A DNA stretch of 34,043 nt from Podaxis mareebaensis. Its lineage: Eukaryota > Basidiomycota > Agaricomycetes > Agaricales > Agaricaceae. Positions 11,611 through 34,043 of this stretch are shown here, one piece after another. The DNA is taken from assembly GCA_018524725.1 (NCBI GenBank), contig JAEUWP010000357.1:1-34043 (forward strand), read 5' to 3'. How positions within the stretch are numbered: position 1 is the first letter of the stretch; every line of letters begins with the position of its first letter. The translations under genes and the position numbers were made by a program. Under the pieces are notes generated by a model, which saw only the letters and a list, made by a program, of their open reading frames with translations, made no database searches and was not told where the DNA came from.

Positions 11611-12088
11611 CCTTTCCCTCTGGCAACAAAAAATGAACGATCCCAACTACTGTGGTCACAACTGGCTCCCATTGCTCAGCCCCCCATCACAGCCCCTTCA
11701 CCCCAAGTATGCCAAAGGCAGCACTTGGCTCAATTCACCTCTCGGAAAAAACGCCAACCTATGCATGCGCTTCACGCGCTGTGTTACCAATCACGTGCCC
11801 ATCAGTGCCTTCTGACAGCACTTTTTCCCTGGGCACCATATCACTTCCTGCCCATGCAGCAAGCCACTTGAGACTCGCGACCACATATTTGACGACTGCC
11901 CCCACTTTTGCTACCCAGTAGGAGAACGTGATGGCTTCTACTGGGTCATCCAATTCCTAGACCAGAACCCAGCTGTGTTTTCATTTGCTGACCAAATTCA
12001 AGGACCCATCACCCAAGAGGAGTTTGCCACCCGCCGCCTCAACAGAAGAGAGTGACTTGCAAGAAATGGAGTCCCGGATGTTCACTGA
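11597..12088 (+). pseudogene. LINE ORF2 C-terminal end, outer copy (continues from 4664)
   Basis: This is the continuation of the outer ORF2 after the nested insertion. It aligns with the inner ORF2 C-terminus and keeps the cysteine/histidine cluster (TSCPCSKPLET, then DHIFDDC). In-frame TGA stops at 11813 and 12053 align with arginine codons AGA and AGG of the inner copy. The natural stop is TGA at 12086, after Val-His, the same C-terminus as the inner ORF2. There is no frameshift. Confidence 0.92.
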
Positions 12089-12339
12089 AGGCTTCTCCCT
12101 CCACCATCTGTATCATAGTTAGCTCCACTGCTTCTATTCTCTCTCTTTCTTTTCTCACTCATCAATCTCAACTCATTAAGTTAGTTTTCTTTCTTTTCGT
12201 CTCACCTCTCTCTAGTAGTTCATATACTTCTATCTCTCCTCTTCTTCTCTATTTTCTTTCCTTTCCTTTTCTCTAGTTTCGGTATTGGGACTGCTATCGT
12301 GCACCTGTTTGTATTAGCTAGTCTAGTGCAATAAACGTC

Positions 12340-12377
<38 letters not shown>
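11611..12377 (+). mobile_element. Outer LINE, right part, ending in poly(A)
   Basis: This is the 3' remainder of the outer LINE: the end of ORF2, a pyrimidine-rich 3' UTR, a conserved 3' block (about 12277-12344), AATAAA at 12330-12335 and 33 A at 12345-12377. The sequence directly after it, GAGATGCTGAAAGG, belongs to the KDZ transposon, so the LINE probably landed in or beside that gene. Confidence 0.93.
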
Positions 12378-12380
<3 letters not shown>

Positions 12381-15298
12381 ATGCTGAAAGGTCAGGCTTG
12401 CTGGTACAAAGAACATCCAGTGGACTTCACGGAAGAAAATGATAATGAGCCAGGGTGGGAAGACCTAGATGAGGAGGCAGCCAACCTAGAAGATATTGTC
12501 GAATATCTCAACCCAGCACACCTGGCAACAGGTCCTCAATCAGAAGCCCCGAAATATGATGCCTTCAACAACCACTATGTCCGGATTGTGCATGTTAACG
12601 GAATTCATCACCAGGCATTGGTGACATGCTCATGCCAGGGTGCCAATGCAGTACATGCTGACCTCATGTATTGCCGATTGGTTCCAACAACATTCAGCCA
12701 TTATCATACACTCTTTACAACAGCCGTCCTTGATGACTTTCAGCTCTCAAACTTGGAATGTAAAGCATCAGCTTATCAATACTTCCAGAAGCTTCATTGT
12801 CTCACATCCCCAATGGACCCATCCAAAATGCCCAACTTGTACCAGGAGCTACTTTGAATGTCAAGACTTTGGCAGTGGTTGAAAAAGAAGAAATGGGCCA
12901 GCCATGGTCATAAATCTGGCATGCAGGCACTGGAAGCACCAGGTGAGCTTGCAATATTTTGTCCAGCATGCCCTCAACCTGGTATCAACCTGGTTGAAAA
13001 TTGGAAGGAAGATCCCCAATGGTGAGGGTATTCTTGATATATGTTATTCACCAGCCTTAACTTCATTTCAGTTGGGTGTACCGGTGCTTCTTTGTTGCTG
13101 ATGGCAACATGAAAGCAGATCATGTTTGGCAGACATATACATCAGACATCTGGCTTTCTGAGGGGACAGGAATGTTTTCCACCCATGAACAATATCATAA
13201 ATTTTTGGAGGCAGCTGTGGAGCGTCTTACCATGCATGCCCAATCTCTGTGTGCTGGGGCAGTAGTGCCAGTGGGGTGATTTCTTGTGATTGATATTTGA
13301 AAACAGAAAGCACCTTGTCAGGCCAAATTCTGTGCAGTTGACCTCGCAATGCATGGTTCCAAGGCATGCAATATAACAGGCATTGTGGGCATCGCATGTG
13401 CCTGGCATGGTTGTTTTGCACCAAATGCCATTGCTGACCTCTTCAAGGGTGAACAGCAAAAAAACATTGACTGGGTGCTCTTACAGGCACTAAAGACCAC
13501 AAATATGGACCCAGAACAAGGTGCTATGCTGATCTATGATATTGCCTGCCAGTATTTCATTCATCTCCAAGATCACATCAGGCATTTATTGCTGGATCAG
13601 CTAAAGCTTGATAGGGGCATTGGCATGTTCCATGTCCATGGCCACAAGGAAGAATGCCTCTTCTGGTATGTGACATTGTTCATCCCATATATGGGTGTAA
13701 CAGTTGGGGAGATTCTTGAAATGTTGTGGTCAAATCTCAATGTAATCACCCCAACTGTACAGACAGCAACTCTGGCCACTTGTGCTGAGACAATTGATGA
13801 TCATGCAAATGACTCAAATTTCAAAAAGCTTTTGGCAATAGGTGTAAACTTTTTTGCACCAAGTGCTGACAATATACTTATGCTTCATGTTAGTCACAGT
13901 TCTATGCAATTGTCATCAGGATGCATCAGCCATGGCACTTGACTCAGAGACTTATTTCTTAAAAATCACTGGGTCTAGCTGACCAGAGGATTGGGCAAAA
14001 TGGGAATGGGATATTGTCAAAGCCAAGCAGTGCCAGTTTGATAACCCAGCAGCAATGGACATACTACATGCTGAAAGTGTGCTGGCCTCTACCAGTCCTG
14101 TGATGCAAGACCCAAATCCAGGGAGTACAGATGCCAAACAGTGGCTTGAGATGGTCCTTGATACTGAAGAGAAACAGTAAGTGGCAACCTTAGTAGCTAT
14201 TTAGGAAATGTGCTCAGGCATTGCAGAACCAAATTACAATATACCTTGGACTATTTCCAGGACATAGCTCAGGGAACTACATCTGAGGAGCTCCATCAAA
14301 TGCTAGAGGCTCTCCATGTGCAGCTTGCTACACTGGAGCAAATGCAACACAAAGTCACCAGTCAACCTGGACATACCTATGACATTGACCCAAATATGGA
14401 GGAGGTCCCACTGCTTGATGGCATTGAAGACAATAATGCTGAAGAAGAGATGGATGGTGAAAGTGCCAATATAGTGCATTCAGCACTGGCAATACCCTTG
14501 TCACCTGGTTGATCATTGGCCTCAACATTGCCAATCCCAATGCCCTCAACAAGCAGTGCTCTGCAAGATATGTATAGAGAGCTTGAACTTGCCTTGTGCA
14601 AGGAAAGGGCTAACTGGCATCTCTCCACACTTTGGCAATTGATTGCAGAAAAATCATTCCAATATTCCCATGTCATCTGTGTTGCTCCTCAGAAGAGCCT
14701 TAAAACATGCTTGCATGTGGAGATTGCAAAACTTAACAAGAAGATTTCATTTCATTGCCGGTCATACAACAAGTGCTGATCAGCACTCTTCCGTCTTCAG
14801 CCAGATCCAGCGACACAGGCAGTGTTTCTGCCACTTGCATGGGAGGATGTCAAAGCTAGCATGGCATTGCTTGACCCAAACCGGCCAGGCTCAACTACAA
14901 TCTGCCTTTCCTGGATATGGCAACATGGACCAGGTGCCAGTTCAGCCTCCCCTGGCACTGTCCATGAATGTAAGTCTGGTGATCACTGCTTTATCTGTGC
15001 CTTGGCATTATGTCTCATCTATCTGACAGTTCAACAGGTCCATTATTTACATGCCCGAGCTAGGAAAATGCATTGGGAAGAAGAAGTGACACTTGTCCAG
15101 TATGAAATGGAGTGGGTAGTTCGTTCCTTTCTTTTCAACTGGTCCCTCTGGGAAAATAGGAAGATGTCAGCAGTATCTCCAGGACTGGCAGCTTATGCCA
15201 CATGTAAATCAGCAATGTGGCAAGGCATGGCTCACAAAGCTGATACTGCGTTTGCCCAGACCAATGACCAATATGTAGTCCAATGTTCCGGCACTTGA
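12381..15298 (+). pseudogene. KDZ-type transposase with CxC2 cysteine cluster, N-terminally truncated and decayed
   Basis: This encodes the transposase of a Kyakuja-Dileera-Zisupton DNA transposon. From 12381 the protein shows the CxC2-associated region (ALVTCSCQGAN, then KASAYQYFQKLHCLT), followed by GELAIFCPACPQPGINL. The catalytic-region hallmarks come next: YRCFFVADGNMKADH, ACAWHGCFAP, IYDIACQYF, FHVHGHKEECLFWY and LWSNLNVI. The typical C-terminal stretch is at about 15030-15240 (VHYLHARARKM, then SPGLAAYA). Likely introns are 13022-13071, 13262-13306 and one ending near 13919. In-frame TGA at 12855 and 13980 break it. The upstream zinc-binding part usual for this class is missing; the frame starts right after the LINE poly(A). 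Later exon joins are not resolved. Confidence 0.85.
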
Positions 15299-15385
15299 CC
15301 TTGGACCCATCGATAATGCTGCAGATAAGCTTATATAGATTTTTGTTATGTCATCATGTATATCCTGAACTGATCTCATCCATCT

Positions 15386-17754
15386 TTGCTTCCTGCTCCC
15401 ATGCCTTCCATTCCCCAACCCACTGCAACACAACCACTGGCCGACCTTGACTCAAGGCTACTTATCCAGTACTTTGAGTCTCACCTTCATGCCATCTTAC
15501 TTCAAAGGCAGAATACAAGGGATTACAAAAGGGCGGAATGGCTTGAAAAAGGCCTTATCAGGGAATATGTAAGTTCAACATTATTACTGAATTATCATAT
15601 GACCCATTAGTTGATGTGAATACAGTATTTTGTGATGTCCTGGTTCGGAATGGAAGCCATCAGGGGTTGTCGGGTAGTCTCAGTTCCAGCAGTCATCCAT
15701 GCTCTTGCCTCGGCCATCAACCACTGGGAACAGTGCTTGGTATTTGACTGGCACCTTCAACACGTCTTGGATGCCAGTGATATTATTCCCTTCCCACTCA
15801 GCACTGTAACCAAATACTTAAAGGACTGGTGGAACAAGAGGCGGTTGCCTCTGGACTTGTTCTTCCTCAACTTCACATCATTGCTGGAGTGCCTGTTGTT
15901 TCACCAGCAACAACTGGCAAAGGAACAAGGCAAACCAGCACCTCCCCCGGACCTCACAGACCACACTGACGAGGTTCCTGCAGCTCATATACCACTGAGT
16001 TGCAAGATGTGCACTCTTTACCGGGGGGTAGCAATGGATGCCCTTCAGCACCTCCAGGCATTACAACATCAAATCTGGCATGTCAGCACTGAACACTGGG
16101 AGAAATGGCAGTTAACGATGCACTGTGTATCTGGCTTCAACCAGTTGTATGAGAAGGCCATCAGCAAAGAGGCCAAAAACTCTGCCCAGGGATATGAGGC
16201 ACAGGGCACTGTCTCTGAGTCTTCGACATCACAATCGATGCTGGCAGGAGCACCTTTGGCATCAACTCCAGCTACTGGGCACACACAGACTTCCAAGGGC
16301 AAAGGAAAGGCAGCCAAGCCTCCTGTCAAGGTATCCAAGCATGATCTCATTAGGTTTGTCTGGGAACATTCTGAAGCTGAGAGAGATCACGTCGCCCCAC
16401 ACCCATCCCTCAAATGGACCTGGGGAGTCGACCTGACTACTGACGATATCTCCCAGATGCAGCATGCTGGCAACAATGATTTTGAAATTCCACACACTGG
16501 CTACGATGCTCCCCTGCCTTGGGGATGCTTCACCAGCACATACTACTCTGGCCAACCTTCTCACTCAGCCACCCCAGCACTGGCACCCCATTCATCTGTC
16601 AATGTGGCCTCTCCCTTGCCAGAACTAGCATCTGCTGATGTCCCAGACCATTTCCACCTCAGGCCCCTGTGCCACCATGCCTCATCTTCTGTTGGTTGGT
16701 TTCCTCTGTCATTGCCTGAAGCAGATCTGGCCACAATCAATGCTCCTGATGCCAGTGCTGATGCCCAAGTCCAAATGCCAGTCACTCCCAGTGCCCAAGC
16801 CAGTGTCCATGCAAGTGCTGGCTCAGCCCAACCGTCGCCACCTTCACCCTCCATTGTTCTCGCTGCCCTCCACACATGTGCTGCAAGTGACTCATCAGGT
16901 GTCTTGCCACCATCTCCCCATACCTTTGCTGCTATCAATGCTGCAGCTGATACCTCTCCTGAATCTCACAGTTCCAGCAGTGAAGTTTCTGTCCCTTCCA
17001 TCACACACATTCATCGGGCCTTAGTGGATATGTCTCTGGATGACAATGGTTCTCATGCCGGCTCGCCTCATGATGTGCCAGTTGCTGGTTTGTTATCCCC
17101 TCTGCTTGCTCTCTCTTCCTTCCTTATAACTTATGCTCTTATTTGCAGCCATTCACCAGGCTCTTTTGGCCATCTCATCCAATGACAAAAGCTCCCACTC
17201 CGACTTGCAACCCGATATGCCAAATGCCGGTAACCCACCTTCTCTCACTTTGTTTTTACAAGGTTCACCTCACCAACCCCACCTAGCCACAGATATCCAT
17301 AGGGCACTTTTAGAGATGTCCTCCAATGCTGAAAGCTCCCCTGATAACTCACATGCTGATATGCCATATGCCAGTAATCACTCACTCATTTTACTTTCAT
17401 CTTTTTTCACCTGATGGCCCATGTGCCTATCTACAGATGTTCACAGGGCACTTTTAGAGATGTCCTCCAGCACGGAAAGCTCCCCCACCCACATAACTGA
17501 TGATTTGCTGGATGCCAGTTTGTTACCATACACTTCTACTTTCTTCCCATGTGACTCAGATGTCTACAGATTCTAGTGATGGTCTGTCTGTCCCAGATGT
17601 GACAGATATTCACCATATTCTCCTAATCATGCCAGACTCTGATGATGACATGGAGGCTGGTCCATCTGGCACAACTATGGCACTGGGACCTTACACTGTG
17701 GCCGACTTTGACAACTATCTGGGGCTGGATGACTATGTGACATTCACCGACTAA
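15386..17754 (+). CDS. Unrecognised second gene of the KDZ transposon region
   Basis: I do not recognise this protein. A first open stretch (15386-15610) is followed by a long frame at 15632-17087. The early part looks folded (WFGMEAIRG, then IHALASAINHWEQ, then LKDWWNKRRLPLDLFFLN). From about 16200 it is low-complexity, rich in Ser, Ala, Pro and His, with a Lys-rich patch (TSKGKGKAAK). The 3' end is spliced from repeated exon-intron units (separate entry) and ends in an acidic tail (VADFDNYLGLDDY). It follows the transposase on the same strand with about 90 bp between, has the same low CpG content, and may be an accessory gene of the element. Whether it is still functional is uncertain. Confidence 0.5.
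16999..17680 (+). repeat. Tandem exon-intron repeat units at the 3' end of the KDZ-associated gene
   Basis: Five exon segments encode variants of one motif: IHRALVDMSLDD, IHQALLAISSND, IHRALLEMSSNA, VHRALLEMSSST and IHHILLIMPDSD. Introns at 17088-17148, 17230-17292, 17374-17436 and 17518-17569 separate them, each starting GT and ending AG. All four introns sit in the same codon phase, with donors after Ala-x at the repeat end, so the joined frame stays open to TAA at 17752. The exon-plus-intron unit of about 145 bp was evidently duplicated as a block. Confidence 0.75.
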
Positions 17755-18880
17755 TGTAATCATTATGCACACAATCTCTTGACTGTAATAATTTGCACAT
17801 AGTCACTCCCTATCTGTGAATATATTTTCTCAACTTCCCACTTCTCCTCTCAGAGTGAAGAGCCAGTCAGCTTCCAGCTTGCTCCTGGTGCCGGAACCAT
17901 GGTGCCTGTTTTACCCGTCCAAACCTGTTGTATGGCCAGTGGGCCCGCTGGTCTCATCTCACTCGTTACGTTGTATGGCTTTGCTAGAGTGAGTCACTCG
18001 CTACACTGTAGGTTGACTATGTGGGATATGGAGAGTGATGGTGAGGAGTGATGAGCAGATGAGTTCCAGGGACCATACAGTTTTATTTTTCATTGATTTC
18101 ATGCTTGCGGTGTATTTGTAGCCATTGTAGATAACACATATGTTTTGCATAGTTTTTGATGATACCTTATAATTCATGTGTGGTCGCTCAGTCTTAGTCG
18201 TGAGAAAGCGGATAATGTGCAAATTAAGCACACTTCTAACTTGAGCAGGCTTAAGAGCCAATGCGCACTGATAGAGTGGATTAGCAAGTAGGCTAAGGGT
18301 TGCAGGTTGAGACATGATAGTGAAGTTAATTCATCTTTTCTTATTCATGAGCATCTTCCTTAGTCCATCTCTGACAAACAGACGTGAGGAAGGTGATTGT
18401 GTTGGAGCGCTGAACGCGTGGCGAAATCATAGCTCAAGTACTCACTCTTCCTGCTAATGCTCACTGCGCACTTGACGTTGGTAGCATTCTGTCATCATAT
18501 CCCTTTGTTGGTTGTAACAGCCAGGATATCAATATACCATCAACCACGGACAGTTCAAAGGAGATTCATTATGGGAAATACAGACCCGAACAAACTCGGT
18601 GGGGCCAAGATACAGCATTCAATGTGTGTAGCAAAAAAGGGGCCAGATGCAAAATGAAGATGGAACGGCGATCTGTTTGGTAATGGGAGTGGGAAGGATG
18701 AGTTGGAGGGAATAGGTGAAGGCAAAGGTCTGCTATTTCAACAGACACTAGGGCTTCATTCACAAATCTGAACAGGAAAGCACGAACCGACATCATCACA
18801 TCTATTCAAACCCATCCTCCCACTCGGACATCTCCTACATTCCACCGACTTCGAGCAACACCACGGGTCCAAAATGCCAG
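17755..18880. other. Gap without a supported gene
   Basis: Small ORFs on both strands show no recognisable motif or splice pattern. Low CpG continues from the KDZ element to about 17830 and then rises, so the right end of the transposon may lie near here. I did not find a convincing terminal inverted repeat. Confidence 0.4.
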
Positions 18881-19590
18881 CATCGGCGCTAACACTACCG
18901 CCCACAGTATTCCTCCTTCACCCATCTCAACCCTGTCCCACGTCGCAAGGTTGATACTGTTGTCTCTGGGGCCTCCTATGCCTGATGTATCCTTTCGTAG
19001 CGTGTCACAGGTGAGGAGGGCATTTGAGTAGTCTGATTCGACAGATGCAGGAGATTTCGTGAGAGACGCAACAAAGGACGCTGAGTTCCAAATAGCGCTA
19101 GCATACGAGTGCGAGCTCAGTCGCGACGGCCACAATCCTCGCGATAGTGAAACCAATGAATATACAGGACAAGAGGGGCAGGCGAAAGAGCAAGCGATAA
19201 GAGGGCAAGTACCGACATTCGCGGACTAAACGAGGTATTTGAGGAGAAGACTAGACGTCATGAAGAAACGGTTGGCGGGGATGGAGGTAATTAAGAGTGT
19301 GTGTAGTGAGGAAGCGCAGAGGGGTGCAAGAAGGTTGGCCATCGGTGGATTTGGGATGTCTCAAGCCGTCAGGAGGCTCTATACCATGCGCGATCGGGGT
19401 TCGATCTGGAGTTGTGGGCAGAGTTGATTGGAGAACGAAGGGCTTTGTACAAAGAAATTGGGCGCATTGCCGAAGACTAAGACGAGCAAAGGGTACATGA
19501 AGAAAGGCGACGACGACGACGACGGCATTGTTGAGCAAGTCCGGTTAAAGCAGGGAAGAGAGGATAAAATGTTGGATATTGCATAATAAC
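18880..19590 (+). pseudogene. Degraded multi-exon gene remnant, unrecognised
   Basis: Three plus-strand stretches read like coding sequence but lie in different frames. The stretch 19045-19229 follows a likely acceptor (GACAG) and contains DAEFQIALAYECELSRDGHN. The stretch 19313-19480 contains DLELWAELIGERRALYKEI and ends at TAA. The last, ending at TAA 19584, contains VEQVRLKQGREDKMLDIA after a run of Asp codons. Charged, heptad-like text suggests a coiled coil. Joining them needs at least one frame change, so I call it a pseudogene; an unusual intron structure is the alternative. CpG content here is normal, unlike the transposons. Confidence 0.35.
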
Positions 19591-20894: not shown

Positions 20895-23800
20895 GTAAGT
20901 GATTTCTCGCTTGAGGGAGCACTTTCAGCCTCATATATTCCATCGACAGGCGCTCAAGTCCGGTAGGCCGCTCCTTGAGAATGACAACTTGAGATTCTCA
21001 TATCATTACAGATCTGATTGACAAACTCCGTTCCGAGGGTGCTTCATATAAATCCCGGCACTCTGCCTATGGCGATCCCACAGGATGCATGCCCGGTACA
21101 CGCGTCAATGTCCTCGAAGAGTTGGAAGCCCCAGCTTTTGACAAGAAGGGTGTCAAGGTGCATTGGCTTGCAGGAATGGCAGGCATCGGGAAGTCGACGA
21201 TCGCGCAGTCGTTGTGCGAGCGCTTTGATCAACGGCAAATGCTTGGGGCGAGTTTCTTTTGTTCTCGAGCGTCATACAAAACCAAGGACGCGCGCCGCAT
21301 CATCTTGGGTGTTGCATACAGCCTTGCCAAGGGTTCACCGACTTTCGATGCGGAGCTCGTGAAGGTCCTGGAGAGGGACCCAGATTTGATGGAGTCGAAT
21401 AACATGGAAGAACAGTTCAAAAAACTCATTGTTGAACCATTACGGACCACCGTCGATAGCCAGGTCGGGATCTACAAGATTGTGGTCATTGATGCTCTCG
21501 ACGAATGCACAAACGCTAACCACGTCAAGCGCCTTATCCGGGTCATTCTCGGTTCCCCTTCTGACCTTCCCCTCAAGTTCTTCCTCGTCAGCAGAGCCGA
21601 TGACTTCATCACTACCGCCTTCAGTTCCTCGAACGATTCCCACAATACTTTCTTGCTTCACGAGGTGGAGAAAAGCGTAGTGGAGAACGACATCCGGATG
21701 TATATGAAGGCATCGTTGGCTGAGATCAAGAGGGACTATGATCCAGACAAGGAGGATGGGTGGCCACCCGATAGCGAATTGTCTCAAATTGTCAAGGACT
21801 CTGGAAAACTTTTCGTCTACGCAGTTACGGCAGCGCGTTATATTCGAGACGGCAAACGAGCCCATTACAAACGACGACTCACTTCCTTGGTAAATCATGC
21901 ATGGAGCCCGCAACAAACCTCAGCCATCGATGGACTGTATGGAGATATTGTTCAGCAAGCCTGCGATGGTCAGGAACGTGGAGAATTGCCCTTCATGAGA
22001 ACCCTTGTCTCGTTTGTCATATTCCTTCAACATCCGTTATCAATCGACGCCCTTTCCATGTTGTCGGGGATATCAGATCCCGTCGCCTATTTATCGCCAC
22101 TGAACTCCGTCATTCACATCCCCCCTGGAGAAAACGCTCGAGTGTCCCCATTCCATGCATCCTTCCCAGAGTTCCTCGTAGACCCTTACCGCTGCTCACC
22201 AGAGCGTTTCTCCCCGTTCGCGCCTCTCGTCCCCGCTGATGGTCACGCAGAACTTGCACTCAAATGTCTCGAGCTCATGAACCGGTCGCTCAAGTATAAC
22301 ATCTGTGATGTTCCCGAAAAGTTAACCATCTCGCATGTGGACAGAACCAATCCACCCGAGGATGCCAGCAAAATCTCCGAGGCACTCAAATACGCGTGTA
22401 TTTATTGGGCCACCCATTTAAATGAGGTCCGGGATTCAAGCGAGCCAGCCATTAGTGATGCTTTGGGCAACTTCCTGAAAACTCACCTCTTGCATTGGAT
22501 GGAGTGCCTGAGTATTGTTGGTGAACTGAGGACAGGGGTTAAATCGCTTCTCAGTGCAAGCACCACCCTCTCGGTAAGTCTTAATGATGAGAAAGCAAGG
22601 TGCATGTGCTGATGTCATGGCAGCGCGCCCAAACTACAAATGGCGAGGATTTGCGACCGCTTGTTGATGATGCCTGTCGGTTTCTGCGGATGAATTTCGA
22701 GGGTATCCAGCAGAATTGTTTTGAGGTTTATCAGTCGGCGTTCACGTGGATTCCCAGGAAGTGTTTAATGCGTCAAGTTTATGGTGCACAGGTGAAGGGC
22801 CCTCGAAGTGTCGTAATGGGTCTACCTGACTCCTGGGGATGGATGGAACACTGCATGGGTGGAGGTTCGAGGATTGATTCTGTTGCTTTCTCACCCGATG
22901 GCATGCGAGTTGCCTCGGGATCGGAGGATCAGGCGGTGAGGATCTGGAATGTGGGGACTGGCGAGGAGGAAGCCCGGTTGGAGAGCCATATGGGTCCAGT
23001 GAGGTCTGTCGCTTTCTCGCCCGACGGCATGCGAGTTGCCTCGGGATCGTCGGATCGGACGGTGAGGATCTGGAATGTGGGGACTGGTGAGGAGGAAGCC
23101 CGGTTGGAGGGCCACACGGATTCGGTGTCGTCTGTCGCTTTCTCGCCCGACGGCATGCGAGTTGCCTCGGGATCGTCGGATCGGACGGTGAGGATCTGGA
23201 ATGTGGGGACTGGTGAGGAGGAACCCCGGTTGGAGGGCCACACGGGTTCAGTGAGGTCTGTTGCTTTCTCGCCCGACGGCATGCGAGTTGCCTCGGGATC
23301 TTGGGATCAGTCGGTGAGGATCTGGAATGTGGGGACTGGCGAGGAGGAAGCCCAGTTGGAGGGTCACACAGGTTTGGTGTGGTCTGTCGCTTTCTCGCCC
23401 GACGGCATGCGAGTTGCCTCGGGATCACTGGATCGGACGGTGAGGATCTGGAATGTGGGGACTGGTGAGGAGGAAGCCCGGTTGGAGGGCCACACGGAGG
23501 GGGTGTGGTCTGTCACTTTCTCGCCCGACGGCATGCGAGTTGCCTCGGGATCGTCGGATCGGACAGTGAGGATCTGGAATGTGGGGACTGGCGAGGAGGA
23601 AGCCCGGCTGGAGGGCCACACGGATTCGGTGTCGTCTGTCGCTTTCTCGCCCGACGGCATGCGAGTTGCCTCGGGATCGAAGGATCGGACAGTGAGGATC
23701 TGGAATGTGGGGACTGGTGAGGAGGAAGCCCGGTTGGAGGGCCACACGGGTTTGGTGTGGTCTGTCGCTTTCTCACCTGACGGCATGCGAGTTGCCTCGG

Positions 23801-24171
23801 GATCTTGGGATGGGACAGCGAGGATCTGGAATGTGGGGACTGGTGAGGAGGAAGCCCGGTTGGAGGGCCACATGAAGGCGTTGTCTGTCGCTTTCTCGCC
23901 CGACAGAATGCGAGTTGCCTCGAAATCGCAGGATTGGATGGTGAGGATCTGGAATGTGGGAACTGGTGAAGAAGCCAAGTCGGCCGGTAATTCACACAAC
24001 ATTGAATTCAAGCTATGTCCCTTTCCGCTTCACTTATCTGTCAATCGTGATTGGGTGGTGGGTGCACATTGCCATTGCTGGATCCCCCTTCATTATCGGG
24101 CCAGGACGTTAAGTGCATTTTTTGTTGGAGCACTACATCTGAGCATTGTGGTTTTTGTCACTCCGGAGTAG
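20766..24171 (+). CDS. NACHT-WD40 protein (NLR-type receptor candidate)
   Basis: Proposed exons are 20766-20894, a 13-nt microexon 20950-20962, 21012-22573 and 22624-24171, giving about 1083 residues with no stop; further 5' exons may exist. All introns are GT-AG and 49-55 bp. The N-terminus has a short motif (DQGMFNNAHDFVI) of a kind I recall from agaricomycete NACHT proteins. The linker SAYGDPTGCMPGTR precedes the NACHT ATPase: Walker A GMAGIGKST (about residue 102), Walker B IVVIDALDEC (about 204), then FLVSRADD. Nine WD40 repeats fill about residues 650-1020. Such proteins act as nucleotide-switched sensors in fungal non-self recognition. The ligand and the effector are not evident, and no known effector domain is seen at the N-terminus. 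CpG content is high and there is no TGA decay. Confidence 0.85.
22867..23980 (+). repeat. Nine near-identical WD40 repeats (126-bp unit)
   Basis: The conserved ATG of the DGMRV motif recurs every 126 bp from 22903; in the ninth unit it falls 3 bp early (23908), a one-codon deletion. Each unit encodes 42 residues with a fixed core (VAFSPDGMRVASGS, then RIWNVGTGEEE). Changes cluster at the residues before SVAF, around GSxDxx, and after EGH. The minus strand shows long open frames here only because of the repeat. Confidence 0.95.
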
Positions 24172-26187
24172 ATTATAGCCATTTTTTTAGCCCAGGTAGA
24201 TAATCCCCATGAATGCAGCTTGTATCTTCCTGGAGAGTCGCACATGAGTGAGTGCAAGCCTTGTCTGTCATGGATGGCTCACCCCAGTGTCTCCGCTGTG
24301 AAGGCAGACAGTTGAGGTGAGTTGGTGCAACAGTCCCGTTTCTGTCCTACTTGTAGATTGGCTAATCGGGAAAATTTTATAAGGCAATAATAATGATGGA
24401 CCCACAATCATGCAGGCCATCCATCCACCTGGATTGAACATCTCCGACACTATGCTGTCCACCAGTCTGACTAGGCAGGGTAACACCGTGCCCGATCCTA
24501 TCAAGGAAGACATGTTTTTTTCTGGTGCAGTTTCGATCATCCTTGCATGCTAAAACCAGTGGGATATGTCAGAATTGATTTGAGGGGTCATCACTCGGAC
24601 TTATACCAAGTTGGATGGGATTAATGGGTTGGATTGCATAAGCAGCCATTACATAGCCAAAATGTGTAGTTGTCCAATTCTCCCATAGACCATCGTGTCT
24701 GGCCTACCTGGAGAACCAGATCTTTCTGGATACAACTATGGCACTATCTCCTCTCTTGTCCTTGCTGCAGATGGGTCTGCTCTTCCATGCAGAGACAAGG
24801 AGCCAGGTGGCACACCAACTTCACTCATAGGCTGCATCTATTTACAGGAAATGGGCTCTCATGTCATCTGCCAAACCCCTAAGGACCTCAACAAGAAGAA
24901 GAAAAAGCCTGCAGAGACACATGAACATGTGGGTAAGCAGGTGAATCAATGTGCAGAGGGTGCTGGCTTCAGCTATGCAGACATCATGTCCACTCAGGAG
25001 TTGGAGGGCCTCACATATTGACCTAGTTGATGAAGCTCTTCAACTATCAGGGCCATTACATTATCCAAGTTTTCACCAAGAACTGCAATGCCTTTGTCCA
25101 GTGCACAAAGCTTATGCATAGCAATGCCAACAAGTGTGGACCATGCTTGGAAAGATTAAGAACAGGGATGAGGTGGTGCAGTGGTTAGAGTATGCACACT
25201 TGTTATGCAGTCTCCCTATGTCTAGATACACAGGTGATCTTGTTGGGTTATGAGGATACAGAAGAAGAATCCTCTTGGCTACCCACAATGGAGTTAGAGC
25301 ATGCTGCAGAGCTTGTAGCTGATTTCTACTCTGCTTATCCCACTAAGCCTGGTCCTCTTTCTGCATTATCTTTTTCATGCTGAACTTCTGATTTTTTCTT
25401 TAGTTTTTTCATTTTATTTTCCACTTATTCTTTTCAGTCACAGACAAGAAAAAATTGTTCATATCATTCAAAATTTGCAAAACATTTCTGACATGATACA
25501 AGTACAAGATAGCACATGAGGAATGGATTGGGACAACCACCCTCAAGTGTTCCTATGGACCTGCCTTGTTGTTCCCTCTCTGTACCTCCCTGGATCCTCC
25601 TGTCATCCCCCAAAACTGAGATTCTGCAACATGAGAGTATTCCAATCCAATGCTGCCACCAATTCAGTGTTTGACTCCATATTCTGATTCATGAATTGCT
25701 CCTGTCACACCAACATCTGCTCCACTGTCTGCTGCAAGTTCCACATCACTTCCAACAATCTCTCTAACACAAGGGTCAACTGATCCATCACTTCCTGAGT
25801 GCAACTGTGTGCCAGCTGACTTTCTGCCATCTCTTTCTTCAGCTGGTCCAACTTAGACCCGAGGTAATTCATCTGTTGGGTCATTATTTTCATCCTCAGA
25901 GACAAAGGGGACTGTTCACAGATCAGTAATATGTTTTCCAGGTTGAGCACCACTCACAATTGAAAGACCTTGCACTGGTTCAGACTTGACTACCCTCTTT
26001 GATTTCTTCTTCCCTTTCTCCCACATGGCTGCCTGACTCCCCTCTGATGCCTGACAACACTTATTTGCATCCCTGCCTTCCCTGACCTCAACTTCCATAT
26101 CATCCATCCCTGCTCCCTGCTTTTCCACCATTTGCACAAGCACTTGTTGACAGAGATTGGCATCAAGTTTGGAAAAATCAACAATCA
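24172..26187. other. CpG-poor relic region, no intact gene
   Basis: Between the NLR gene and the gypsy LTR the sequence is poor in CG dinucleotides, like the KDZ element. It contains short open stretches: plus strand 24695-25021 with a Lys-rich patch, 25030-25188 (separate entry), 25192-25383, and minus-strand ORFs at 25705-26188. None matches a family I recognise. An old DNA transposon is the likeliest origin, by composition only. Confidence 0.4.
25030..25188 (+). pseudogene. Short ORF with a CxxC motif, probable fragment
   Basis: This 52-codon frame from ATG 25030 to TAG 25186 contains NYQGHYIIQVFTKNCNAF and then KCGPCLERLRTG. The regular pattern and the cysteine pair suggest a real coding relic. 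The neighbouring upstream frame (ending TGA 25019) is in another phase, so a frameshift or lost intron is possible. No family is recognised. Confidence 0.3.
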
Positions 26188-26188
26188 T
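25705..26188 (-). pseudogene. Coiled-coil-like ORF remnant cut by the gypsy LTR
   Basis: There are two overlapping minus-strand frames. The upstream one (25916-26188) is charged and Lys-rich (WEKGKKKSKRVV). The downstream one (25705-25953) has heptad-like text (LGSKLDQLKKEMAESQL). Its apparent ATG uses the first base of the LTR, so the true N-terminus lies beyond the gypsy element and the gene was cut by the insertion. Function is not recognised. Confidence 0.35.
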
Positions 26189-26458
26189 GTAAACCCGTTG
26201 GGTTTACTTAGAGCGTATGACCTTACGTTCACACCGAAGTACTGTAAGCCCGATGTATTGGGTGTACTTATGGTATGGTATAAGGTCAGCTGTCCTAACG
26301 ACAGCTGACAACAAGATTTATAAGGAACGCATTTTGATGGATTGAGTAATCCATCAAGGTCGAAGACAAACAAAAAAAAACAAATGATTAATTATTAACG
26401 AGTGACTTAAATAATCCTGAACAATTGAAGATACGACTGTAAGGGCCCAGCCCTTACA
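26188..26458 (-). repeat. 3' LTR of the gypsy element
   Basis: This 271-bp segment begins TGTAAGGG and ends TTTACA on the minus strand (TG...CA). It is bounded on the inner side by a purine tract and on the outer side by unrelated relic sequence. A TATA-like TTATAAAT lies at 26316-26323 (minus strand). Four perfect hairpins lie inside: 26189-26207 (arms 8, loop 3), 26285-26309 (10, loop 5), 26334-26357 (10, loop 4) and 26438-26458 (9, loop 3, at the very end). Confidence 0.88.
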
Positions 26459-26469
26459 CACCCCCCGTT
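26459..26469 (-). other. Polypurine tract
   Basis: On the minus strand AACGGGGGGTG directly precedes the LTR start TGTAAGGG. This is the expected position of the plus-strand DNA primer in LTR retrotransposons, and it fixes the LTR as the 3' one. Confidence 0.8.
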
Positions 26470-26627
26470 GAGACCATAGAATACGGTCAAGGAAATTGAA
26501 ACACAAGTGGCGCGGCTACTTGTGGTAGTGAGCGATAGATGGGGCACATATAGTGCCCAGCCGGCAAGGTAGATTAGTACGAGGTGACGGTTCACCTCGA
26601 CGAAGGTGTAAGCTGGAGTCGACTCGT

Positions 26628-29600
26628 TCACGATGGTGACAAGGATGAGCATGAGCGGGAAGAGGCAATTGATGAAGACTCGCTGACAACATCTTGGGAT
26701 GAGGGGACGGAGGCGTTGGCCTCAGCCAAGAATGCAATGGGAGGCAGATTGGATGCAAGGGCAGAGGCGTTGGCCTTGGTCATGGTTGCATCCAATGACA
26801 GATGGTCAGCAACGATGGGGGTGATTACAGAGGCATTGGCCTCTGTCATTTGGGTGTCCGCATCGAGGGCCGCTTCCTCGGTGATTGTAGGTGCCAGCCC
26901 AGTGAGGGTTAGCGCGAGGGGGTGGGCTACCCATAATTGAGAGGGGGGCGGTTCCAGCAGGCATTGAGGGTACTCGCAGTTCTGGAGGAGCTGGAAGAAT
27001 GGCGAGGCCCCTGCTGGTAACCATCCTCGGGGAACAAAGTGCTCCCCCTTGGTCTGTTGTGCGTTCTTGTACTCAAAGTACAAGAATCAGTTAATGTCGT
27101 CATGAGTGGGATGTCTCCATCCATCCCACTCAGGAATTGCTGGGGGTTCGTGATATCAGTCGAGATATTCGACCCGACGATTGTCATGTTCGTCATATAA
27201 ATCGTGGTGCAGCTGGTCACCATGGTAGGTGTGGTTTAGCCACCACAGCCCGAAGAGGTAGGAGTGGTCTACCCATGAAATGGGTATGCCGTTACGGATG
27301 AGAACATGAGCCACATCATTGAGGCTCAAGTTGTGCGAGGCATATGAGGTCATTTCTAAGGGCCGTATTGAGTATACGGGCCTGTTTTGAGGAATGAAGG
27401 TGCATTCTGGAGGAACGCGACTATTGTATGATGTGATGAACTCATGGTACAGGTGAGGAGTCGCCACCAGTACAGCGAATAATCGCACAAATCTCTGGGC
27501 AGCACTCTTGTCATCAGGGCTCAGGGCATGACCCAGGCCATATCCGAAGATGCAACGGCAGTGCACGAGTTTCTGCTGTTCAAATGCAATGCCGTTGAAG
27601 GCATTACAGGTATCCGGGTTTCCGTGTATCAGGAGATATTGACCTAGAAGGTCAATATCGAACAATTGGGGTCTGGAGGGCATGGGCAGTCCTTTGCCCT
27701 CATTTCGTTTGAGGACGTTATGCACGCCGTGATCTTGGATGGCACACGGAATAGGCTCTAACCTGGTGATATACTCCTCCTGCATCCCAGGCGCTAGGAA
27801 CTTGGGGTCGTAACCCTCAAGGTTCAAGATGAATTCCATAGCATCATTGTGATGCTCCAGAAGGGTCGAGGAGGCAATGTTGTGCAGTTCTCGAAGCAGG
27901 AAATATGCTTCGAACCTGCTATGGATGTTGATGTGGTGGTTATTCATAAACCGCCATAATCTGATGACTTGTCTCAGGGTCATAGGTAGACCCCATCCTG
28001 CGATATGATGAATGGTGCCCTTCTTGTTGTTGTGTATGAACTCCCTGCCTTGGAGTTTGGCGTTGGCAGCAAGTCGAGCATTGGTACCTGCAAACACTGT
28101 ATTTGTTCACCGGTAGTAGTAAATGTCATGTGACAACATTCCACGCATGAAGTTGTCACACTCGTGGATGCTGGGTTTGGTGCCCCAGAGCCCCCAGAGG
28201 TCAGGGATCCTGCCTCTGCGGCCAATGAGGTCCGAGATGTCGGCACAGTCGTCAGCATTCGACGACGGTGCCTTATTTTTGCCCTTTCCTTTGGCCTTCT
28301 TGCGACAATTCTTTGCTGAATCATCGTCATCGCTCGAGTACTCCAGCCCTGACAACTGCTCGTCTGGGTCATCTGGGCTGTATCGGGTGAATTCATGGTG
28401 GAGGCGGATTTCTGGTTCTGGCAGTAGGGTACCTGGTGGGCGTACCAGGATGGGTTGACCGAATGAGAGTCCCTCGAATAAGGACTCTGGTGGAGTAATG
28501 CCACTCGAGGTCGGTTCTGTTGACCTCGAGGAGAGTAGTTTAGGAGGTTCCGTCATGGGGACGTCAATGTCCCCTGAGGGTACTTCCTCAATGTAGGGTA
28601 GTGTGATATCGGCTGGGGGCAGTGGTGGCCAATATGATGACAATGTGATTGGTGGGGGCGATGGTTGGCAGCGTTGGTGAGGTAATGGTTTTACCTCGTT
28701 GCCCATGCGTGATGTTGGTGTGGTGGGGGCTTGTGGGGTGCTGGGCACCCCCTGTTGGGATGACGACGTCAATTGGGACATTGCATGTCGTTTCACTGGC
28801 CGTTCCTCCTCCCAGTCCGGCTTCTCACTCAGTTGTCATTGCAGGTTAGAAACCTGCCTTTGCAAGAGGCTGTTTCGTCCTTCGAGCATGATGAAATGAT
28901 CCTGAAGGCTGCAGAGCTTGGCGAGGAGCTCCTCAATGATGGCGTTGCAACCAGCATGTCGTGAGCTGGTGCTCATTTCTGATACCAGGTCTATCAGTAG
29001 ACCTGCTTCGTTGAGGTGGTTCATGAGCTCTTGGACATACTGGTTGTCCTCAAGCTCTATGTCTATGGCTTTTTGTTTTCCTCGAGCTTTCGAGGACAGC
29101 GCTGGCTGGACTAGCTCCATTGTTCTTTGTTTGTCCTTGTCCTTTGAGGATGAGGGCAGTGGTCGTTCAGTTGTCCTACTTCTTCCTCTATTGGATGTTA
29201 CAGAGGAAGATCATGATGGAGGAGCATTAGTGTTCCTCCATGATTTGGGATTGGTGGGTTCCAGTGTGATCGGGTGCGATGTGGTTGTTGGCCGGTCTTG
29301 GTTCTGTGGTGGTGGTGGTTGGGGTGCCTGCATCATTTGTTGGATTGACGCATGCTGTTGCTGTATGAGTGGCGCAGTGGGCGGTTGTTGATATGATGGG
29401 TATGGGTTCATCAGTGGAGGGTATGGTCCGTACGGTTGTGGGAAACCGTACATGTGTGGGGGCGGTGGGTAAAATGCGGGGTATGGGAAACCCTGCATGA
29501 AAGATTGTTGTGGCAGAGGCATTGCGTGGAATTGTGATGGGTCCATTAGGTTGGGGCCTTGTGGTATCGGGCCCACAGGGTTGGATAATGGTGCTCGTTG

Positions 29601-29786
29601 GGCAGCGAATTGCTGTCCGTTGTGCAAATGAGTTGGGGTTGGGTCGGACGATATGTCCATTGCCCTCCCCCCTTCGAGGCCCAGTATAGGGCCTCCGCTT
29701 TGTGCAGGGTGATTTGGATCACCCAGCGTTGGTTGCTGGGTTTGTTGCTGAAGCAGTTGAGCTTGCTGTGAATGTTGCGCATCCAT
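26628..29786 (-). pseudogene. ORF3 of the gypsy element, between pol and 3' LTR, function unknown
   Basis: A single frame of 1052 codons from ATG 29786 (another ATG is at 29906) to TGA 26628 is broken by TGA at 29211, 28836, 28107, 27156 and 27087. The first 200 or so residues are rich in Gln and Pro with a Tyr-Pro-Gly stretch. A heptad-like coiled coil lies near residues 229-316 (DNQYVQELMNHLNEAGLL). A Pro-rich and acidic linker follows (SSDDDDSAKNCRKKAKGKGK). The globular part is at about residues 560-880 (RLWRFMNNHHINIHSRFEAY, then GNPDTCNAFNGIAFEQQ). I recognise no family. No signal peptide or membrane segment is evident, so it does not resemble an envelope. It could be a structural (gag-like) or accessory protein. 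Confidence 0.75.
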
Positions 29787-29838
29787 GATGGTGGTGGTGA
29801 AGAGAGGACGAATTAAAGTTATTTGTCCCATCTTTGTG

Positions 29839-29892
29839 TTCCCAAACATTGGGAATGCAATCCTCAGGGTCAAGTGTCCAAATTTGGACACT
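29839..29892 (-). repeat. Two perfect inverted repeats in the pol-ORF3 junction
   Basis: The 126-bp stretch between the pol stop (29913) and the ORF3 ATG (29786) holds a 7-bp stem with a 3-nt loop at 29839-29855 (TTCCCAA and TTGGGAA) and a perfect 20-bp palindrome at 29873-29892 (half-site AGTGTCCAAA). They could act in ORF3 expression, or belong to the element-wide hairpin pattern. Confidence 0.7.
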
Positions 29893-29912
29893 GTCAATTT
29901 TTCCATGGATAG

Positions 29913-32900
29913 TCATTGACTGATCCGTGGTAATTGTTGAATTGAGTTAGCACCTTTCAGCTCTAGATACCGATCTAGAGCTGCTAGGTCTTTACAATGG
30001 CGATACGGCTCCCATGTCATATCGCCTAGACTCCAGCATACCTGGAATTCTGCCTTGCCATCGTTTGTGAAATGATGACCAATGATTTCATCGACGAACC
30101 ATTCATGTTCGTCATCTACGCCAAAGTTGTAGGGTTCTGGTTTATTTTGGCTAGGGAATAGTGTATCGTCCGATGCATTATAGGGCTGAAGCAATGATAT
30201 GTGGAACGTTGGGTGTATTCGATGTTCCTGCAGGGCTGGTGGTAGCTTGAGGTGGTAGTTAGATGTCTCAGGTTTGGCTTCCAGGACCTTAAAGGGTCCA
30301 ATGAACTTTGGGCAGAGCTTTTGAGCTCTGCCTTTCAGCAAGTTCAGGTTTTTGGTGGAGAGGAATACCAGATCCCCGACTTTAATGTCGGGTTCGGGCC
30401 CTCTCTTTTTGTTCGCCTGGTGGGTTTGGAAAACCCGTGCTTCTATGATGGCATCATGAGCGGATGCCAAGTTTATCAGGGCGGCTTTGGTGAATAGTCT
30501 AACACCCTTAGGGGGTGTTAGGTCACCCTGTATTTCTCAGATCATACTGGGCATGTATCCACTGTTCAATTCGAACGGTGCGTACCCAGTAGTGGCCGAT
30601 ATACTCGAGTTTATAGCAAACTTGGTCATGGGTACCTTGTCTACCCAGTTTTTCTGGTCATGGCTGACCGTTGCTCGGAATATCTGTCCGATATTCTGGT
30701 TCATGCGTTCGGTCTGTCCGTCCATTTGTGGGTGGAATGATGTGGACATTAGGAGCTTGGCTCCTAAAATTTTATGGAGTTCTATCCACCAAATGGAGGT
30801 GAACTTTGAATCTCGATTGCTTACGATCGAGCTAGGGAGGCCATGTAGCCTCATGATCTCTCGTAGGTAGATCCAAGATAACTCAGATGCTTTCATCCAC
30901 GTATGTACTGGGATCAGGTGTACCATACTCGTCATTCTACAAATGACGACCCAAAGGTAGTCAAAGCCTTTGGATTCAGGGAATGGGCCGACAAAGTCCA
31001 TTCCAATGGAATCCCAAGGCTTGGTTGGGACTGGTAGTGAGTGCAGTGTCCTGGAAGGTTTCGTATTCAAGACCTTCAAGCGTTGACATATTTCGCATGT
31101 TCTGCAGAACATGCGTGCGTCTTTGGCTAATTTTGGCCACCAATACCACCTTCGGAGGTACTCTGCTGTCCGTTGATCACCGAAGTGACCAACGATCTTG
31201 TGAGCTTTATTCAAAAGCTCTGTAATTAAGGGTCGATTGTTGGGGACACATACTACCTCCCATCCTTGGGGGGTAGTTCTTCTAATAATACCGTCATTGT
31301 TGACGGTAAAACCACTGTATTTCTCAGGTGCTTCAAGCACCGCTGAAAATACAGGGTCGGATGCGTATCCCGATGTGATTGTATTCATCATGTCACTTGG
31401 GAGCTCCATTGGAGCTTCGGTGGTGATGTTACCTGTTAACACATCTCCCAGTGTTGGGGACTCAGCGAGTCGTCCTTGTGGCTCCTGTTGAGCAACCTGT
31501 CTCTGGGCTGCTTCTTGAAGCTCACGAGCTTCAATCTCTCGTTCTTCCTGCCATTCACGCAGGCAGTCGCTTTGCCGCAATGGTTGCTCAGCCATTGCCT
31601 TGACTCTGTCGAGGAGATGCTCGATTTCCTTGGTTCGTTGTAAGGGTAGATCCTCGCAGTGAGGATCGATTTTGTAGTCGACTTGGACGTAGTCTCCAGG
31701 GGAGTGTTCCTCTCCTGGGGTATCACTTTTGAAGTAGCGAGACAAGCAGTCTGCTACCTTGTTTCGTTCCCCTTTGACATAAGTGATGTCAAAGTTGAAG
31801 CGTGACAGGTAGTCCATCCATCATCGTTGTCGACTGGACAATCGCGTTTGGGTTTTGAAAAACTCAAGTGCTTTGTGATCCGTGATTACATGGATCTGAT
31901 AACCAACAAGTTTATCTTCCCACTTCATTAGTGCTTCCAAAATCGCTAGTGTCTCAAGTTCATGCATGGCATAGTTTTGCTGTGTGGGGGTGAACTTCTT
32001 GGACATGAACCCTGCTGGGCGGCAGTCTGCCCAGGTGGGTCCTTGTCCGTACATAGCTCTGATGCCTCTCTTAGAGGCGTCGCAGATGATCCATATAGGT
32101 TCCCCAGTTCTGGGGTCTATTGGTTTGACGATGGGGGTCTTCTTGCAGATCCTCTTCACCATGTCAAAACATCATTGGTGAAGGGGCCTCCAATGGAACG
32201 GAGTCCCGTTCTGAGTGATTGTGAGCAGTGGCCCGGTGTATGCAGATACGTCTGGCAAAAAGTTTGCCAGGTAGTTGATGAGTCCAACGAATCATTGGAC
32301 ATCGGTATAGTTTCTGGGAGTGCACCACTCCCGGATGCGGGTCAATTTGTCTTTGTCTGGGTGTATCCCTTGGTCATCGATAATATGACCAAGGCAGTCG
32401 ACGCGATCTGCGTACAGATCGCATTTGGATTGTTTGACGTATAGCTTGTGTTTGCGCAGTCGCTCGAACACAAGCCGTAGATGATCTTCGTGCTCATCTA
32501 TCGAGTCAGAGAATATGAAGATGTCGTCAAGGTATACGTGTACGCATATACCTATGACGTCGCGAAATATAGCGGTCATCAACCGCTGAAAGGTTGCAGG
32601 GGCATTGCAATCCCCCTGCTGCATTATGTTGCTAACATACGTGCCAGCGATTGTGGCAAATCCTGTTTTGTCTACGTCTTCCAGACGTATTCAGACTTGT
32701 TCGTAGGTGTCAGCAAGATCAATTTTGGATCGATATCGTGCTCAAGCGATGTCTTCTCGAATGACGTCTTGGTCTGGCAAGGGCGTGGCGTCCTTGACAG
32801 TGTTTTCATTTCATTGTCGTGCATCTATGACGGTTCGTAGTCAACCATCTTTCTTTGGAATGCACAGTAACAGCGCCGCTTGGGAGACATGTCGTGGCTC

Positions 32901-34043
32901 CCACCATCTTGCATTCACATAATGGTTGAGTTTCTGGTGAAACTCCCCATGTAGAGATTGAGGGCATCGAGGAGTGAAGTAGTTGTACTTCTTGTTCTCA
33001 TTGATGAGGTTTATTTTGTGATTTACTTCACGAAATGGTGGTAATTTGTTGGGAGGACCTTGCATGATGTCCTCGAATTCGCTGAACCACTGCTGGCACA
33101 GAGTCGGTATGTTTTTCTTGGAATACCGACCTTGTCACTCAGGGTGGCAATTCCTCTTTTCAGTGTTGATATGAGCATTTCGTATTCGTGTTTCTGAATT
33201 GTCTTCCACTGGAAGACGAGTGACGATCATACTGTGGAGTTGATCTCGCACCATTTTATCAGGGTAATGTACCCTGGTAAACTCCTGGGTTTCAACTACG
33301 TCGTCGAGGTTGGGTTGTGTGAACCCAGTCGAAGTTGGTAGTTCGTCCCCAGGACGACACATTTCCCATATGCCACAGACCATGGCATTCCATTCTGCGG
33401 GCATTCGGGGGTCGTAATACCACTCGAACATTGGGTTCTGAGCTGGTCTGTCTATCAAATGAGACTTGTATCTCGTTTTTTGTGGTCCATGAGGGGCATT
33501 TTGTCCCTCTTGATTTGGTGAAGGGGGCACTTTCTCCTTCAGTTTGTGTCTCTTGGAAGAGACCTTGTGTTCTTCTTGATCCACGTCCCCCCTTCGAGAG
33601 TTCATGGAACTCTCGACCTTTTCTAGGAGGTGATGGCTATTGTGGGGTAATGTTTCCCCTCGGGAACTTTGTTCGTCATCTCGAACTTCTTCTATGGATG
33701 TTTGATGAATATTATCTCGTCGAACATCCTCCACAAGTCAACTTGACTTGTTTTTGTCAGTTGCACAGTGGCGACACAGGCAAGTATCTGATTCACCAGC
33801 AAAATTTGCCACTGCTATGGTTTCGTTCCTGATTCTGACTTCATTCTTGATGAAGTCGAGGATGATGTTATTCATACGCATGAATGGCATACCGATTATC
33901 ATGTCGTAGCGATTGAAGTTCACTACATCTACATACGTACAGGTACGTATGTTTCCAATGGCAATGTTTACTGTCGCTCTGTACTTGACAGTGGATCGAC
34001 TGCCCACTGTCCCCAGCTGCAGTGTGTGAGGGTCTAATAGTTC
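29913..34043 (-). pseudogene. Gypsy pol polyprotein (protease-RT-RNase H-integrase-chromodomain), partial, ten TGA stops
   Basis: The frame runs in from the right edge. The protease C-terminal half shows YDMIIGMPFM; its catalytic Asp-Ser/Thr-Gly would lie beyond 34043. RT has PKKDG, KIDLADTYEQ, NAPATFQRLM and catalytic YLDD. RNase H keeps ICDAS, HELETLAILEAL and ITDHKALEFF. Integrase has the HKIVGH/CRTCEIC zinc finger, MDFVGPF and HPQMDGQTERMNQ, but its second catalytic aspartate reads SNRD instead of SDRD (ATT at 30816-30818, plus strand). A chromodomain (EWFVDEIIGHH, then VCWSLGDMTWEPY) is C-terminal. TGA stops are at 33738, 33135, 32841, 32811, 32742, 32691, 32292, 32172, 31821 and 30537, with no frameshift. 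It is inactive as written. Confidence 0.95.

Follow-up and report, generated by a model that had tools for sequence, protein, structure and literature searches.

Ty3/gypsy chromoviruses (Metaviridae, including the Tf1/Tf2-like elements) are long terminal repeat (LTR) retrotransposons defined by their named lineages and by the order of their domains, and in RNA viruses an ordered RNA structure on the scale of the whole genome has been described. Here we describe the short perfect hairpins of a partial retrotransposon which occupies positions 26188..34043, on the minus strand, of a 34,043-nucleotide stretch of DNA from the fungus Podaxis mareebaensis (contig JAEUWP010000357.1, positions 1–34,043; assembly GCA_018524725.1); this whole stretch is referred to as the window. 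The retrotransposon is a Ty3/gypsy element, and it resembles the chromoviruses in having an H2C2 zinc finger, an integrase core, an SH3_Tf2-1 domain, a weak chromodomain match, reverse transcriptase (RT), RNase H and LTRs of the TG...CA type, but differs from them in being saturated with short perfect hairpins and in having extra 3′ open frames. With the ordered RNA of viruses it shares a low folding energy along its length and hairpins that are carried by synonymous choices, whereas the structures in this retrotransposon are short local Watson-Crick hairpins, without preference for G.U pairs and nearly equal on the two strands.

Two further systems are close to this one. Hairpins made by template switching (PMC8794818; PMC8604942) likewise have perfect short stems, short loops and loop inversions; here, in contrast, dozens are found per element, and conversion of one arm is not above control. 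The stem-loops of retroviral and retrotransposon LTRs (PMC3601003) include conserved LTR stems and inverted repeats at the LTR tips as are found here, but this LTR packs four perfect hairpins into its 271 bp, of which one stands at the 5′ tip and another beside the 3′ tip, and the hairpins continue through the element. Searches of an open literature collection, from which most subscription journals are missing, brought up no description of a retrotransposon so filled with perfect short hairpins.

Perfect inverted repeats with arms of at least 8 bp and loops of 0–14 nt number 38 in 26188–34043, against 1.5 ± 1.1 (maximum 4) in 60 dinucleotide shuffles, which is an excess of about 25-fold over chance in the window's copy. 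The initial annotation of this DNA had claimed at least 32 perfect hairpins (arms of 8–11 bp, loops of 0–14 nt) where about two were expected, and the present count bears this out and surpasses it. The same shuffles gave 0.4 where 21 were observed for arms of at least 9 bp and 0.03 where 11 were observed for arms of at least 10 bp; with 20 shuffles, 113 were counted against 22.7 for arms of at least 6 bp and 70 against 6.3 for arms of at least 7 bp. The hairpins are located in the LTR (four in 271 bp), in pol, in the 3′ open frames and in the region 5′ of pol, in agreement with the spread over LTR, pol and 3′ reading frames that had been noticed earlier.

Host controls were taken from the rest of the window and from the 5′ flanks of other copies of the element, and the labels LINE, KDZ and NLR for the rest of the window are those of the initial annotation, taken over as given. 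For arms of at least 8 bp and loops of up to 10 nt, the element has 33 hairpins against 1.05 in shuffles, the stretch 12000–19000 has 1 against 1.6 expected, and 20900–26187, outside the LTR edge, has 0 against 0.7; the excess is absent from the KDZ- and NLR-labelled stretches and mild in the LINE-labelled stretch 1–11300 (6 against 1.45). Upstream of the 5′ LTR of other copies no hairpin is found in 1.5 kb at four of five loci (L042 being left out of this count), and the fifth flank, that of L062, has six and is probably next to a further family member. The greater part of the flanking sequence tested does not exceed chance, and the LINE-labelled stretch lies mildly above it. The earlier claim that the pattern ends at the LTR edge is upheld by the empty stretch beside the LTR and by the four empty flanks, and flanks as dense as the element were not found, in spite of the mild LINE excess. 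The LINE-labelled stretch also has 15 inverted repeats with arms of at least 7 bp against 5.7.

The profile of loop sizes was computed for arms of at least 7 bp over 45.7 kb of twelve related sequences. The excess is 60-fold at a loop of 3 nt, 22-fold at 4 and 19-fold at 5, about 5-fold at 10, 2- to 7-fold at 11–14 and 0.8- to 1.8-fold beyond; a profile which peaks at 3–5 nt and leaves little beyond 14 indicates hairpins and not dispersed repeats. Long dispersed inverted repeats were considered and rejected on this profile and on the absence of inverted pairs of at least 60 bp in 24000–34043, and chance and composition are ruled out by dinucleotide and codon-preserving shuffles. The spacing of the hairpins is no more regular than random, no loop motif is apparent, and no known RNA family was matched at gathering score. 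GNRA and UNCG tetraloops are absent from the 30 four-base loops, a count too small to tell since just 0.9 and 0.4 were expected.

The property extends to the relatives of the element. When the pol segment was searched against the genome (G000; 429 contigs, 36.95 Mb), 45 matches were obtained. Twenty-five of them, counting the copy in the window, cover the whole segment at 86–100% identity and represent the first family. All 25 full-pol loci (~5 kb each) carry 20–37 hairpins with arms of at least 8 bp (3.9–7.2 per kb); among the partial copies L034–L038 four are hairpin-rich and one is not (1.05 per kb). As the hairpins are common to many copies, they existed before these copies were inserted. 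A second family is ~67% identical to the first and was seen as pol matches of 70–73% identity in six places; the three of these which were fetched over pol have 9, 8 and 11 hairpins in about 2.2 kb, and L072–L074, further second-family sequences picked on the basis of protein matches, carry 9, 8 and 12 in 1.6–3.0 kb against 0.35–0.6. At L075, 8 hairpins with arms of at least 7 bp are found in 1.0 kb against 1.2 expected. The idea that L072 represents a third family was abandoned, since it and L075 probably derive from a single second-family element that has been interrupted. On contig C70 (12001–24415) a second-family element is apparently split by an insertion of ~11 kb.

Eight other Ty3 loci, which form three families by cross-identity, have 10 hairpins together against 4.6, so that these three families show no or mild excess. 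Saturation with hairpins is real and pronounced in one clade of retrotransposons of this genome, a Ty3/gypsy clade of which the window's copy is a decayed member. No relatives were found in viral contigs, in a search from which records near this genome may be excluded. In another Ty3 family of the same genome (L004–L008), inverted repeats with arms of at least 7 bp number 33 against about 11, summed over five loci.

Much of the variation between copies is CpG decay, and this decay dates the maintenance of the stems. At 48 places where CpG faces CpG in the two arms, and both have decayed, 312 cells are matched and 302 unmatched; the control of 583 unpaired CpG pairs gave 3989 matched and 3985 unmatched. 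Since double decay is matched as often as unmatched, the arms are apparently uncorrected after insertion and their maintenance predates it. Correction of the arms in the host genome is ruled out for the 25 first-family copies by this independent decay. The two imperfect stems with CpG decay that had been named earlier (around 33456–33477 and 33016–33037) are both present, and the claim that the stems are older than the decay agrees with the independent decay of the two arms.

The strongest signs of constraint are found in the LTR. The 3′ LTR (26188..26458, minus strand) is 271 bp long, ends in TGTAA...TTACA and contains four hairpins, all read on the minus strand. H1 (26438..26458) stands at the 5′ tip of the LTR and has 9-bp arms and a 3-nt loop, with seven of its nine pairs invariant; H2 (26334..26357) has 10-bp arms, a 4-nt loop and one pair which is T-A in one LTR subtype and C-G in the other, a compensated change; H3 (26285..26309) has 10-bp arms and a variable 5-nt loop; and H4 (26189..26207), one base from the 3′ tip, has 8-bp arms and one compensated pair, A-T or G-C, between the subtypes. 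All four are present at the same places in both LTR subtypes (four and five sequences). Divergence between the subtypes outside CpG, with L041 left out, is 0.091 in stems (68 sites), 0.417 in loops (12) and 0.288 elsewhere (141). Over 18 LTRs 94.1% of stem cells pair, against 24–44% when the stems are slid, and compensated change is seen in 11 cells against 3.4 in shuffles; G.U occurs in 10 LTR cells, at three pairs. These patterns support selection on the structure of the LTR hairpins. L067 is mixed, in that its H2 belongs to one LTR type and its H4 to the other.

For the coding hairpins the evidence lies mainly in codon choice. In the integrase frame of ten copies (eight of the first and two of the second family, with reading frames in different states of decay), inverted repeats with arms of at least 7 bp fall from 11–18 to 1.3–2.1 after synonymous codon shuffles, and dinucleotide shuffles of the same ten segments leave 0.7–1.4. 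As codon-preserving shuffles remove most of the hairpins, it is mainly the choice among synonymous codons that encodes them, and a small remainder lies in the protein; a similar number in codon-preserving shuffles, which the initial annotation had named as a refutation, did not appear. In pol, 35 sites have an arm of at least 8 bp in at least one of the 25 copies. The codon registers of the first family are distributed as 121:50:14 for pairs and 17:13:5 for 35 sites, the preferred registers being those where third positions can match first or second positions.

Some coding stems are common to the two families. The 8-bp core of the hairpin at 30749..30767 (minus strand) is identical in both families including its silent sites, and in the window's copy its varying base lies in the loop; that at 31094..31115 (minus) is present in both families with a double change from T-A to A-T between them and with different loops; and that at 31772..31794 (minus) has 9-bp arms which are perfect in all 25 family copies, with a variable loop. 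Of the stem pairs of the first family that lie outside CpG, 185 in all, 105 are the same in the second family; 66 are changed on one side (14 to G.U, 18 to A.C and 34 other) and 14 on both, with 8 of these 14 still paired against 3.9 expected. In the reverse direction, 88 of 141 pairs are unchanged, 44 changed on one side and 9 on both, 3 of these still paired against 2.2 expected. Among coding silent sites outside CpG, variants in at least three copies occur at 15.5% of stem sites (194), 29.4% of loop sites (51) and 20.2% of other sites (287); the higher variation of loops than of stems has a rotation P of 0.007, as one of 18 uncorrected comparisons, and in CpG columns shared silent variants do not differ between loop and stem. 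Selection on structure appears to be supported more weakly for the coding hairpins than for those of the LTR.

Selection explains these results most simply; template switching is a serious competitor or may have contributed, and the two are not fully separated. The reading that we favour, at about even chances of being right, is that generic Watson-Crick hairpins were kept by selection in the active phase of the element, strongly in the LTRs and weakly in the genes. In the replicating phase selection would favour many generic local hairpins, mostly with arms of 8–11 bp and with the excess commonest at loops of 3–5 nt, which would fold in both polarities, as genomic RNA and as minus-strand complementary DNA (cDNA). 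If folding is needed in both polarities, G.U pairs, which are useful on one strand only, would not be favoured. The four LTR hairpins would be individually important and conserved, while the coding hairpins would be redundant and each weakly selected, so that they turn over between families and their density stays high. Their role may be the compaction or shielding of single-stranded intermediates, which is a guess. Of the causes proposed in the initial annotation, selected structure is supported in the LTR by stem conservation and the two compensated pairs, and more weakly in the coding part; a conventional sense-RNA structure is not, as G.U preference and an apparent loop motif are lacking.

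Several observations weigh against this selection. In the LTR, the pairs with a double change are two, which is not above shuffles, and the stretches outside the stems are conserved too. In the second family the codon registers are less strongly preferred (68:47:26 for 141 pairs, 6:3:4 for 13 sites), and just 6 of 27 second-family sites with arms of at least 7 bp coincide with first-family sites. One-sided breaks exceed compensations in both directions (66 against 8; 44 against 3), which shows individual coding stems to be hardly protected. Stem sites do not differ significantly from other silent sites (P 0.08–0.13), and for divergence between the families the contrast of loop with stem is of marginal significance (P 0.053). 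With few active copies in the lineage, selection that is weak on each of very many hairpins would be hard to sustain, and three loop inversions point to template switching.

The nearest competitor, possible although less probable than selection, is that the hairpins are produced and mended by the element's own RT. The growing cDNA would fold back on itself, use one arm as template for a few bases of the other and then return, so that imperfect stems would tend to grow perfect over replication cycles and protein constraint would leave mostly synonymous traces. Its best evidence is three exact loop inversions with intact arms, each in a single copy, in which the loop is the reverse complement of the commonest loop of the family: CAT to ATG in L033, CTA to TAG in L018 and TGTG to CACA in L073. 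In the survey of 821 hairpin-copies at 94 sites with at least three intact copies, these are 3 of the 6 cells where a loop of 3–4 nt differs at three or more bases from the commonest one, and 3 of 33 over loops of 3–8 nt. The L073 inversion is also reachable by CpG-type transitions, though five relatives carry TGTG; a fourth pair of loops, ATAC/GTAT, was not counted since two CpG-type transitions separate them. Loop inversion is described as a footprint of template switching in yeast (PMC8604942) and in ribosomal RNA (PMC8794818). The same copying would also account for Watson-Crick stems that end at chance-level mismatches, for an excess that marks one retroelement clade strongly and other retroelements mildly and is absent from the KDZ- and NLR-labelled stretches, and for maintenance confined to the time before insertion.

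The traces expected of arm-to-arm copying are otherwise lacking. The two arms of 48 family-specific stems share the differences between families equally, with 119 in each, and the mean imbalance is 1.13 where 1.44 was expected. Among first-family copies 29 of 84 sites (35%) have an arm imbalance of at least 3, where shifted control positions give 36 ± 5%; once the three most divergent copies are removed, the figures are 7 of 71 (10%) and 20 ± 5%. Copy-specific clusters of change gave no convincing case: of 155 in the first family 6 were candidates, each at p about 0.1 and all within those three divergent copies, and of 17 in the second family none was. Nothing above control was seen for one-arm conversion among shared changes, a list inspected by eye and without a statistical test, and multi-base changes of one arm which complete a stem are likewise not above control. 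In PMC8794818, 94.7% of two-step compensations are isolated single changes which are uninformative on the process, and for this reason the missing clusters do not exclude template switching. The conservation of LTR stems (0.091 against 0.288) would, by our own argument, be unexpected under unbiased copying from arm to arm, and the inversions may postdate insertion and have arisen in the host genome. The template-switch cause that had been suggested for the hairpins keeps the three inversions in its favour, against one-arm changes that are no commoner than at controls.

A combined version, which we hold only tentatively, is that the RT steadily writes hairpins: self-templated copying would drive the sequence of the whole clade towards perfect hairpins, limited mainly by protein coding, and the element would then use some of them, namely those of the LTR.

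It is unlikely that the hairpins represent sense-strand RNA structure of the genome-scale ordered kind known from RNA viruses, selected for packaging, stability or escape from RNA interference. In windows of 150 nt the mean folding z-score of the window's copy is −2.7 in sense (52 windows) and −2.4 in antisense, and three other stretches of the window range from +0.3 to −0.9 on both strands; folding energy lies far below the sequence-order controls along the part of the element in the window, the codon-preserving control having been made for hairpin counts only. The sense strand folds more strongly than the antisense in seven of eight sequences, and the LTR offers compensated changes besides its ten G.U cells, all of which suits such a structure. 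Of 329 cases in which a stem was followed past one mismatch, 36 continue for at least two pairs where 21 would be expected; this suits it too, though decay of longer stems gives the same. What stands against it is that the antisense strand is nearly as structured, that no loop motif is apparent and spacing shows no regularity beyond random, and that no preference for G.U over A.C was found in stems, at stem ends or between families. At 103 stem ends with a clear mismatch there are 9 G.U, 28 A.C and 66 other, where base composition predicts 12.5, 22 and 68; 32 ends without a clear majority and 7 which pair were left out. This is a better test than the count of G.U in stems with one mismatch, in which the loop rule missed some stems and copies are not independent. 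The signature of structure specific to one RNA strand with tolerated G.U is not seen. The LINE-labelled stretch 1–11300 has a folding z-score of −0.9 on the plus strand and −0.2 on the other.

It is highly improbable that the hairpins merely arise from base composition, codon usage or processes of the host DNA that affect all repeats, such as cruciform repair and host replication: both kinds of shuffle remove most of them, the excess is bounded at the LTR and the arms are uncorrected in integrated copies. In favour of such an origin are the mildly raised counts of the LINE-labelled stretch and of one further Ty3 family.

If the hairpins were selected, they represent a structural constraint along an LTR retrotransposon which acts on both polarities. 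If the RT made them, they are a natural record of template-switch mutation on a scale not known to us, and if it steadily writes them, a structural bias in copying, and not base composition, would direct how the sequence of a mobile element evolves. Either idea is testable, because the many dead copies separate maintenance before insertion from the decay that follows.

The element in the window extends from its 3′ LTR to a protease-like region, with its 5′ part, including the 5′ LTR, lying beyond the window; its assignment is based on the 38 hairpins, the Pfam domains and the LTR and pol matches on contig C286. LTRs at both ends are seen through the 3′ LTR in the window and both LTRs of the copy on C286, which measures ~11.7 kb from LTR to LTR by these matches. 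The two LTRs of that copy differ at 13 sites, every one a transition. By their coordinates the domains follow the order RT, RNase H, integrase of Ty3/gypsy elements. On the minus strand the RT domain fragment lies at 32292..32690 (RVT_1, E 5e-22), the RNase H domain fragment at 31821..32171 (RT_RNaseH, 5e-24) and the integrase region at 30537..31820, with an H2C2 zinc finger (Integrase_H2C2, 1e-16) and an integrase core (rve, 5e-5) which is below its cut-off here; the protease-like stretch is a weak match to RVP_2 (E 0.07). The C-terminal integrase part (29913..30536, minus) matches SH3_Tf2-1 with 64.6 bits and, weakly, Chromo with 16 bits against a cut-off of 25.1.

Downstream of these domains on the same strand are a proline/glutamine-rich 3′ open frame (29211..29912) without Pfam match and, within 26628..28835, three hairpin-bearing 3′ open frames (26628–27086, 27156–28106 and 28107–28835) without Pfam match above cut-off. 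The frame at 27156–28106, of 316 amino acids and also downstream of integrase, had a single relative in a large protein search, with 45% identity over 99%. The 5′ LTRs of other copies were recognised by stretches which match just the last 271 bases of the LTR query. At five such loci (L057, L058, L060, L062 and L066) the sequence directly behind the 5′ LTR starts CTTTTTTACT, and on reading of the sequence only, no TGG, as in a transfer RNA primer site, was seen there; self-priming is conceivable as a possibility for such a sequence. In five copies (L059, L061, L063, L065 and L068 against L017, L019, L025, L015 and L030) pol is 87–91% identical to the window, with LTR and 3′ end at 72–74%, and LTR and body look as if they had been swapped between subfamilies.

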